Shown: positions 17,543 to 20,346 of the stretch, piece by piece
How positions within the stretch are numbered: position 1 is the stretch's first letter
Layout of the letters: each line of letters starts with the position of its first letter
Assembly: GCA_004570425.1 (NCBI GenBank)
Contig: SPQJ01000024.1
Span: forward strand, 1-64,000
Direction of reading: 5' to 3'
Origin: Bacillus sp. AZ43
GTDB taxonomy: Bacteria > Actinomycetota > Actinomycetes > Mycobacteriales > Geodermatophilaceae
DNA: 64,000 bases
The notes under the pieces: generated by a model
What the model was told of the DNA's origin: nothing
The model's input: the letters and a program-made list of their open reading frames with translations, nothing else
The model's database searches: none
Program-made: the position numbers and the translations under genes

Positions 17543-18616
17543 GTGCCCGCACCGCTGAACGCCGAGAACGTCCGCCGCGCCCCGAAGGTCCTCCTGCACG
17601 ACCACCTCGACGGCGGCCTCCGCCCGCAGACGGTGCTCGAGCTGGCCGACGAGCTCGGCTACCGCGGCCTGCCGGCGGACGACGCGGAGACCCTGGGCCG
17701 CTGGCTCCGCGACGCGGCCGACTCCGGGTCGCTGGTGCAGTACCTGGAGACCTTCGCGCACACCGTCGGTGTGATGCAGACGCCGGACGCGGTGCACCGG
17801 GTGGCCCGCGAGTGCGCGCTCGACCTGGCCCGCGACGGCGTCGTCCACGCCGAGGTCCGCATGGCCCCCGAGCTGCTCGTGCCCGGCATGCCGATCGAGG
17901 CTGCCGTGGAGGCCATCCTCGACGGCTTCGCGCAGGGCAGCCGCGAGGCCGCCGAGGCGGGGACGCCGATCCGCGTCGGGGCGCTGCTGTGCGCCATGCG
18001 GCAGAACGACCGTTGGGACGAGGTCGCCGGGCTCGTCGTCCGCTACCGCGACGCCGGCGTCGTGGGCTTCGACCTGGCCGGCCCCGAGGACGGCTTCCCG
18101 CCCGACCGCATCCCGTCGGCGATCGCGCTGCTGGACCGCGAGGGCGCGCACCGCACGGTGCACGCCGGGGAGGCGGCCGGCATCCCCTCGATCCGCGCCG
18201 CGCTCGACGGCGCCCGCGCCGAGCGGCTGGGCCACGGCGTCCGGACGGCGGACGAGGTGCCCGTCGACGGCCCGCTCGGCCCGGTGGCGCAGCGGGTGCT
18301 CGACCAGCAGGTGCCCCTGGAGGTCGCGCCGTCGTCCAACGTGCAGACCGGCGCCTACCCGTCGCTGGCGGAGCACCCGGTCGACCGGCTGCACCGGCTG
18401 GGCTTCGCGGTCACCCTCAACACCGACAACCGGCTCATGAGCGGCGTCTCGGTCACCAGCGAGGTCACCGACGTCGCCACCACGTTCGGCTGGACCTGGG
18501 ACGACGTCCGGACGGTCACCGAGCGCGCGGTCGCGGCCGCGTTCCTGCCCGCGGAGGACAAGAAGCGCCTGCTCGAGGACGTCGTCCGGCCGGGGTTCGC
18601 CGCGCTCACCGCCTGA
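17543..18616 (+). CDS. add: Adenosine deaminase
   Basis: 357-residue metal-dependent deaminase converting adenosine and deoxyadenosine to inosine and deoxyinosine. Metal and catalytic motifs: HDHLDG with His19 and His21, HAGE near residue 206, LGHGVR near residue 230 and NTDN near residue 293. The GTG at 17543 fits the leaderless promoter; an upstream ATG at 17513 would add ten residues. Its inosine product is the substrate of the purine nucleoside phosphorylase encoded further right. Confidence 0.94.
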   Translation: MPAPLNAENVRRAPKVLLHDHLDGGLRPQTVLELADELGYRGLPADDAETLGRWLRDAADSGSLVQYLETFAHTVGVMQTPDAVHRVARECALDLARDGVVHAEVRMAPELLVPGMPIEAAVEAILDGFAQGSREAAEAGTPIRVGALLCAMRQNDRWDEVAGLVVRYRDAGVVGFDLAGPEDGFPPDRIPSAIALLDREGAHRTVHAGEAAGIPSIRAALDGARAERLGHGVRTADEVPVDGPLGPVAQRVLDQQVPLEVAPSSNVQTGAYPSLAEHPVDRLHRLGFAVTLNTDNRLMSGVSVTSEVTDVATTFGWTWDDVRTVTERAVAAAFLPAEDKKRLLEDVVRPGFAALTA

Positions 18617-18671
18617 GCCGGGTGCCCACCGTCACCCCCGTTCGCGGGAATCACGATCACGTCCCCGCTGC

Positions 18672-18677
18672 TACGGT
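18672..18677 (+). promoter_or_regulatory. Probable -10 of the helicase leader
   Basis: TACGGT fits TANNNT. Transcription would start near 18684 and give a leader of about 175 bases that includes the small reading frame and hairpin described below. Confidence 0.45.
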
Positions 18678-18726
18678 AGGTGCACCGGCACAAGGCCGGT
18701 CATCCTCCCGGACGGTTTGTCCGGGC

Positions 18727-18774
18727 ATGAGCGCATCCGTGCAGATCCCGCGTTCCACACCTGGGCGCAAGTGA
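18727..18774 (+). CDS. Possible 15-residue leader peptide
   Basis: A complete reading frame ATG...TGA encodes MSASVQIPRSTPGRK in the 5' leader of the helicase gene. It ends 10 bases before a strong hairpin, the geometry of a translated attenuator. There is no strong ribosome-binding site, and no codon run that names an amino-acid signal. Existence as a translated peptide is inference. Confidence 0.3.
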   Translation: MSASVQIPRSTPGRK

Positions 18775-18783
18775 TCGCCAAGT

Positions 18784-18818
18784 GAGGACGCCGGTACCTG
18801 CCGGTGCTCCTCCTCTTT
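18784..18818 (+). terminator. Attenuator-like hairpin in the helicase leader
   Basis: GAGGACGCCGG pairs with CCGGTGCTCCTC (18801-18812), 11 base pairs with one bulged C and a TACCTG loop. CTCTTT follows, a short U-rich tract. It lies 41 bases before the helicase ATG and could terminate transcription or mask the translation start. Confidence 0.45.
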
Positions 18819-18858
18819 CACGGGACGCGCTCCGAGCAGTATCGGAGCCCCACCCCGC

Positions 18859-20346
18859 ATGACGTTGGTCAACCCTGTCTCGTTCGAGTCGAACACGACC
18901 GAGAACGCTGTTCAGAACACCACCATTGAGAACACCGTCGACGCCCCCGCGGGCCCGACGTTCGGCCAGCTGGGTCTGCCCCAGCTGCTCGTGACCGCCC
19001 TGGAGCGGCGCGGCATCCACCGCCCGTTCGCCATCCAGACCTCCGCCCTGCCCGACGCTCTCGCCGGCCGCGACGTGCTCGGCAAGGCCGCCACCGGCTC
19101 GGGCAAGACCCTGGCCTTCGGCCTGCCGCTGCTCGCTCGCATCGGCGCCGAGGTCAAGCAGGGCCGCCGTGCCCCGCGCGGCCTCGTGCTGGTGCCGACC
19201 CGCGAGCTGGCCCAGCAGGTGCACGACAACCTCGCGCCGCTCGGCCAGGCCACCGGCGTGCAGCTCGCGACCGTGTACGGCGGCGCGCCCATGTACCGCC
19301 AGATCCAGCAGCTGCGCCGCGGCGTCGACGTCGTCATCGCCACCCCCGGCCGCCTGCAGGACCTGATCAGCCAGGGCGAGGCCACCCTCGCCGAGGTCGT
19401 CGTGACCGTGCTGGACGAGGCGGACTTCATGGCCGACCTGGGCTTCCTCCCGGTCGTCAAGGAGCTGCTCGACCAGACCGCCCGCGACGCCCAGCGGCTG
19501 CTCTTCTCGGCCACCCTCGACGGCGAGGTCGACGCCCTGGTGCGCCGCTACCTCAAGGACCCGGCCCGGCACGAGGTCAAGCGCGCCGGCGACGACGCCC
19601 CGCCCGCCGAGCACCTCGCCTTCAGCCTCGCCTTCCGTGACAAGCTGCAGGTGGCCACGGAGCTCGCCGGCCGTCCCGGCCGGACCATCGTGTTCGCCCG
19701 CACGCAGCTCGGTGTCGACCGGCTGACCGAGAACCTCAAGGCCGCCGGCATCAAGGCCGAGGCGATCCACGGCGGGCTCCCGCAGTCCGCGCGCCGCCGG
19801 GCCCTGGAGGAGTTCACCGACGCCCGCTCGCCGGTCCTGGTGGCCACCGACGTCGCCGCCCGCGGCATCCACGTGGACGACGTCTCGCTGGTCCTGCACT
19901 ACGACCCGCCGACGGACGCCAAGACCTACCTGCACCGCTCGGGCCGCACCGCCCGCGCCGGTGCCGCCGGCGTCGTCGTCTCGCTGCTCCTGCCCGACCA
20001 GGTCGGCCAGGCCAAGCGCCGGTTCCGCACCGCCAAGGTCGACCCCCGCGTCGACCGGATCCGCCCGGGCGACCAGGCGATCCTCGACCTCGTCGCCTCC
20101 GGTGTCGCGGTCGAGCCGAAGGAGCGCACCCAGCGCGACATGCGCCGCGGCGGCGGTGGCCCCGGTGGCCGCCCGCGTCGTGACGGCGACCGCCCCGGCG
20201 GTCACCGCGGTGGTCCGCGCCGGTCCTACGGCGACCGCCCGCGCGGCGAGCGCCCCTCCGGGGAGCGGTCCTCGGGCGGCTCCTACGGCGAGCGCGGCCA
20301 GCGCTCCGGCGGGCGGCCCGGCCGCCCGTCGCGCTACGGCAGCTGA
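18859..20346 (+). CDS. DEAD-box RNA helicase
   Basis: 495-residue ATP-dependent RNA helicase of the RhlE/DeaD type. Q motif region GIHRPFAIQTSALP, Walker A ATGSGKT (about 78-84), PTRELAQQ, DEAD box at 186-189 (VLDEADFM), SAT in LLFSATLDG, VATDVAARGIHV and HRSGRTARAG are all intact. The C-terminal 70 residues are an RGG/Arg-Gly-Ser-rich disordered RNA-binding tail. Such helicases remodel RNA in ribosome assembly, decay or cold adaptation. The long structured leader suggests autoregulation. Followed by a strong terminator. Confidence 0.95.
   Translation: MTLVNPVSFESNTTENAVQNTTIENTVDAPAGPTFGQLGLPQLLVTALERRGIHRPFAIQTSALPDALAGRDVLGKAATGSGKTLAFGLPLLARIGAEVKQGRRAPRGLVLVPTRELAQQVHDNLAPLGQATGVQLATVYGGAPMYRQIQQLRRGVDVVIATPGRLQDLISQGEATLAEVVVTVLDEADFMADLGFLPVVKELLDQTARDAQRLLFSATLDGEVDALVRRYLKDPARHEVKRAGDDAPPAEHLAFSLAFRDKLQVATELAGRPGRTIVFARTQLGVDRLTENLKAAGIKAEAIHGGLPQSARRRALEEFTDARSPVLVATDVAARGIHVDDVSLVLHYDPPTDAKTYLHRSGRTARAGAAGVVVSLLLPDQVGQAKRRFRTAKVDPRVDRIRPGDQAILDLVASGVAVEPKERTQRDMRRGGGGPGGRPRRDGDRPGGHRGGPRRSYGDRPRGERPSGERSSGGSYGERGQRSGGRPGRPSRYGS

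Follow-up and report, generated by a model that had tools for sequence, protein, structure and literature searches.

The window, the whole 64,000-nucleotide stretch of DNA analyzed here, comes from a member of the Geodermatophilaceae; its best named relatives belong to Blastococcus, with a helicase approximately 90% identical. The locus of interest contains a gene for a DEAD-box RNA helicase of 495 aa (18859-20346, plus strand), for which the nearest NCBIfam models, CshA and RhlE1, score below their cut-offs, and an upstream adenosine deaminase gene that ends at 18616, leaving 242 bases between the two. Within this interval we found, on the plus strand, a -35 element, GGGAAT (18646-18651), resembling that of SigR/SigH-type ECF promoters, and an extended -10 element, TGC-TACGGT (18669-18677). 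The initial annotation had placed a -10 at 18672, and TACGGT indeed occupies 18672-18677, with the TGC just before it making it an extended -10. Transcription probably starts at A18684, 7 nt downstream of the -10, which would give the helicase mRNA a structured 5' leader of 175 nt (18684-18858, plus strand; supported by covariance model R1 and alignments A3 and A4), directly before the helicase ATG at 18859 and in line with the approximately 175 bases first estimated.

We extracted 85 such leaders from genomes, 74 of them distinct. GGAA(T/C) stands at a constant distance from +1 in nearly all 74, and TANNNT is found at -12 (once at -13) in every one. Across these leaders the helicase promoter reads GGGAAT/GGAAC at -35, a fixed spacing, and TG(C/T)TAnnnT at -10. 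The consensus for SigR/SigH-type ECF promoters is GGGAAT, 16 nt, and SGTTG (PMC3489674); the -35 and the spacing of the helicase promoter fit it, whereas TGCTA (TGTTA in L039, L048, and L098) replaces GTT. Such a promoter suggests that the helicase gene may belong to a heat or thiol-stress response. Upstream of the promoter, at approximately 18620-18639, an imperfect inverted repeat (GGGTG...CACCC) is present at 40 of the 74 loci; it could serve either as an operator or as the terminator of the preceding gene.

Our data indicate that the leader is a family-wide companion of this helicase. When 200 genomes of the order were searched at the DNA level, it was detected in 30, 28 of which are within Geodermatophilaceae. 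Covariance model R1, built from 39 leaders, matched 102 of 112 Geodermatophilaceae genomes, in exactly one place each. The covariance search suggested in the initial annotation therefore finds the leader conserved in this family upstream of the same helicase, which lies directly downstream at all 74 distinct leaders; such a fixed position upstream of one gene class is typical of a structured cis-regulatory mRNA leader. The ten genomes without an R1 match are mostly incomplete metagenome-type assemblies, and their best helicase matches are only 42-51% identical, the level seen for the second paralog in leader-bearing genomes, so the helicase ortholog itself is missing there. Two loci that lack the upstream adenosine deaminase gene still have the leader, indicating that it goes with the helicase, and a BLAST search of the leader against its own genome returned itself as the sole match.

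Beyond this family, R1 gave no strong match among the other families represented in a class sample of 395 genomes and none above chance at 31 helicase loci of other families. A bipartite motif consisting of GCGCATCCGTGC (block A), a gap of 62-92 nt, and CACGGGACG (block B) is carried by 71 of 397 order genomes, all of them Geodermatophilaceae, and by 0 of the 395 other genomes sampled across the phylum; the backward control of the motif had zero matches in both the order and phylum samples. A DNA search with one mycobacterial-type leader showed that it is not conserved throughout the family it belongs to. Within Geodermatophilaceae, identity between genomes is 86-90% in the conserved leader parts, compared to 67% at the fourfold sites of these helicase genes and 42% just upstream of the promoter (the last from an ungapped comparison, and so a lower bound). 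By this family comparison, conservation of the leader is far beyond chance.

The predicted free energy of the window leader is -83.6 kcal/mol, while dinucleotide shuffles average -69.2 +/- 4.3 kcal/mol (z = -3.4). In a structural alignment of 55 leaders (A4), the extreme 5' end forms hairpin P1 (ACCGGC/GCCGGU, 18684-18700, plus strand, as are all elements below), with compensatory A-U/G-C as well as one-sided changes; its closing pair alone breaks, in 6 of the 55 sequences. P3 (CCCGGAC/GUCCGGG, 18707-18725) also carries compensatory changes, its A-U pair at 18712/18720 having become G-C at least two times on the tree, and has zero broken pairs among the 55 sequences. Block A is the P4 hairpin (GCGC-AUCC-GUGC, 18731-18742). 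Its stem is invariant in 55 of 55 sequences, which makes covariation impossible there, and its loop has lost one base in L111 and changed one in L063. P5 (18744-18776) is a GAUC/GAUC helix capped by a variable hairpin. In separate lineages double changes have turned this helix into the GGCC/GGCC or the GACC/GGUC type, and the 55 sequences include no mismatch and one gap.

The compensatory changes in P1, P3, and P5 were matched by 0 of 500 controls for both score and changed cells, and shuffled and slid controls were clearly lower. The double changes fall on several branches of the helicase tree and comprise few independent events, and a measure of further pair types had no excess over shuffles. 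Conserved structure, a second mark of structured cis-regulatory mRNA leaders, is thus supported by compensatory changes in P1, P3, and P5, and by folding of individual sequences for P6. A closing helix, P2 (18703-18707/18784-18788), was part of model R1 and was dropped since divergent members, L194 among them, break the pairing.

Downstream of the P4/P5 junction lies the hairpin that had drawn attention to this leader. The bulged hairpin and the CTCTTT after it are both present: P6 (18784-18795/18800-18812) has 12 pairs and one bulged base, with CTCTTT at 18813-18818, followed by the nearly invariant block B, CACGGGACGCGC (18819-18830). P6 folds in all 73 leaders that retain the region (mean z = -2.6); its sequence varies, and its arms vary together between lineages. 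The hairpin therefore belongs to a real structured leader, as proposed; the best conserved elements (P1, P3, the P4/P5 junction, and the hairpin over the Shine-Dalgarno described below) had gone unmentioned.

The initial annotation considered P6 attenuator-like, and P6 with its U-rich stretch could serve as an intrinsic terminator that forms in a regulated manner. Apart from P6 with its CTCTTT, no terminator-like site was found in this region of the window, and in many Blastococcus leaders 4-6 of the 8 nt immediately preceding block B are T. However, these 8 nt contain at most one T in 32 of the 74 leaders, and block B and the downstream hairpin P7, which lie 3' of the stretch, are the most conserved part of the leader. 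The competing upstream pairing that an attenuator would use, UCCUC/GAGGA (18703-18707/18784-18788), is moreover broken in several divergent members. A hairpin followed by a U tract is thus not the pattern over the 74 leaders, and is found in part within Blastococcus. Since Geodermatophilus and its relatives lack the U-rich tail, terminator attenuation cannot be the general mechanism, although premature termination is possible in Blastococcus; attenuation as an account of the leader is improbable. The structural half of the earlier proposal stands, because the hairpin is real and kept in the family; its terminator half does not extend across it.

A 15-codon frame with an ATG and a TGA, MSASVQIPRSTPGRK, is present in the window at 18727-18774 as first described, and its translation was proposed to act as the sensor. 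If so, a conserved small frame would be expected among the relatives. Only 43 of the 74 distinct leaders have the ATG, the remaining 31 reading ACG, CAC, TAG, AGA, and others at this position, and no Shine-Dalgarno-like sequence precedes it. Where the ATG is present, frame length varies between 10 and 57 codons, and the stop is not conserved. The common MSASVQ- start (MSASVQI) arises because the invariant P4/P5 RNA spells it, and we regard the frame as a by-product of RNA conservation and reject it as a conserved gene. A leader peptide is therefore hardly credible as the regulator, despite the existence of the frame in the window; of the two features whose conservation was to decide the matter, the hairpin is kept and the small frame is not. 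A second frame seen by eye, from a GTG at 18782 to a TGA overlapping the helicase ATG, cannot be general, as helicase starts of the form ATGT or TTGT eliminate the TGA.

The 3' end of the leader is occupied by P7 (18822-18851), a predicted hairpin of the GGGAC...CCGA/UCGG...GUCCC type with a mean z of -2.1 over the 74 leaders. It sequesters the Shine-Dalgarno GGAG (18844-18847), which is present in all 74 leaders, 11 nt from the ATG in the window and 7-13 nt from the start codon in relatives. The predicted probability that GGAG is unpaired averages 0.125 over the 74 leaders, compared to 0.37 for the whole leader, and is 0.002 in the window. The form of P7 differs slightly between Blastococcus and the other genera, and GGAG is predicted to be paired in both variants. 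Covariation in P7 is scant, its pairs being mostly invariant, and the pair 18825/18848 is open in Blastococcus. By prediction, then, the Shine-Dalgarno is paired in the default fold across relatives, as in translational control by Shine-Dalgarno sequestration. The helicase start codon is TTG instead of ATG in 14 of the 74 distinct leaders (e.g., L103-L106, L112-L115, L043, and L048), where the spacing to the Shine-Dalgarno is shorter.

Our data suggest that the leader is an undescribed cis-acting regulator that would limit helicase translation by covering the ribosome-binding site, a reading to which we assign a probability of roughly 0.6. The leader mRNA would be transcribed from its own conserved promoter and fold into P1, P3, the P4/P5 junction, P6, and P7. 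Since P7 covers the Shine-Dalgarno, the ribosome-binding site would be closed by default and translation held down. P1 to P5, and block A above all, would act as the receiver of a signal that alters how well P7 holds. As the likeliest signal we hypothesize the helicase or the activity in which it takes part, through negative feedback, stress, or cold. The action on translation is our inference, as is the modulation of P7 by the upstream part.

How the upstream part would modulate P7 is suggested by block A and block B, which may pair with each other. The two could form 10 pairs (-14 kcal/mol), and block B is the best complement of block A within the leader. This complementarity is modestly unusual (reached by 1.6-4% of shuffles) and is retained in the divergent leaders L111, L107, and L194. 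The paired state lies approximately 2.8 kcal/mol above the minimum on average. Forcing the pairing did not free the Shine-Dalgarno in the model (0.17 versus 0.13), and lower temperature favored the P7 state further; for these two reasons we do not claim a switch between block A:block B and P7, and such a step would be a weak part of the model. A bolder version, in which a new RNA family toggles between P7 (Shine-Dalgarno closed) and a long-range block A:block B pairing with the helicase setting the balance and thereby sensing its own unwinding capacity, is unlikely.

The same calculations bear on whether temperature could act on the leader directly, as in a thermosensor or cold-shock leader that works without a trans factor. 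DEAD-box helicases are often cold-induced, and the leader combines a stable structure with a near-isoenergetic alternative, the block A:block B state. Yet the modeled shift toward P7 at lower temperature is the opposite of what cold induction would require, and the promoter looks like a stress/heat type and not a cold type. We consider a temperature response of this kind quite unlikely.

P1 to P5 might instead form the aptamer of a riboswitch for a small molecule or ion, with P6/P7 as its expression platform. The compact junction, the invariant unpaired or loop bases (AUCC, CAUCC/CUCC), and the variable expression region are consistent with this. Known riboswitches, however, usually spread over several genes, and this leader would control one helicase gene and no metabolic gene and was found, in the order and phylum samples, in one bacterial family only. 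A search of Rfam 15 yielded no family at gathering score, the matches being at chance level and on the other strand (E of 3-5), which agrees with the earlier remark that no known riboswitch class explains the structure. A riboswitch is thus distinctly improbable.

Apparently, then, Rfam lacks this RNA family. Its kind, the structured cis-regulatory leader, is known, and within that kind we class it as new. The literature searched contained no paper on it, and the surveys of bacterial structured RNAs that we searched (the 2017 survey of 224 motifs being outside the comparison) mention no DEAD-box helicase leader. It shares with ribosomal protein leaders and the Escherichia coli rne 5' UTR (mentioned in PMC10989929) the control of translation or stability of one gene by a cis-acting folded 5' UTR; unlike these, it has no sequence or structure match in Rfam, and any trans factor is hypothetical. 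Similarly, uORFC-6-1 in Bacillales places a structured RNA and a small frame before an RNA helicase gene, hflX (PMC8632094), but its peptide is conserved, the frame in our leader is not, and both phylum and helicase differ.

Among the signals considered under translational control by P7, the helicase is the natural candidate. It might bind or remodel its own leader (e.g., at P4/P5 or P7) and so limit its own synthesis, a plausible special case that corresponds to the feedback loop envisaged in the initial annotation and would be compatible with the leader structure. There is one leader per genome, present only with this helicase, although such co-occurrence is expected for any cis-element of the helicase gene. 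The DEAD-box helicase CrhR of Synechocystis offers a precedent, as it regulates its own expression, partly after transcription; however, the authors of that work conclude that CrhR has no direct association with the turnover of its mRNA, it belongs to another phylum and responds to temperature and redox signals, and the available part of that report describes no conserved structured leader family (PMC3485376). Taken together, we regard helicase feedback as a tentative possibility on the unlikely side. How bacteria set the amounts of their RNA helicases is poorly known. Since this leader is compact, one-copy, family-wide, and found in culturable bacteria, one could use it to test directly whether an RNA helicase gauges its activity by acting on the mRNA that encodes it.

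Two further observations concern relatives outside the family. A draft genome assigned to another family (G134, 82% complete) contains a close helicase and leader (L107, 560-697, minus strand); this leader is missing the P5 3' strand and P6 but still has P1, P3, and block A, together with an altered block B, and it could represent a transfer, misbinning, or a decaying copy. In addition, short hairpin-like elements, GACGTG..CACGTC or GGGACGTGCCGTCGTC, were seen by eye beside the Shine-Dalgarno of helicase orthologs in other families (L137, L138, L139, and L140), and may be further helicase leaders built on the same principle.
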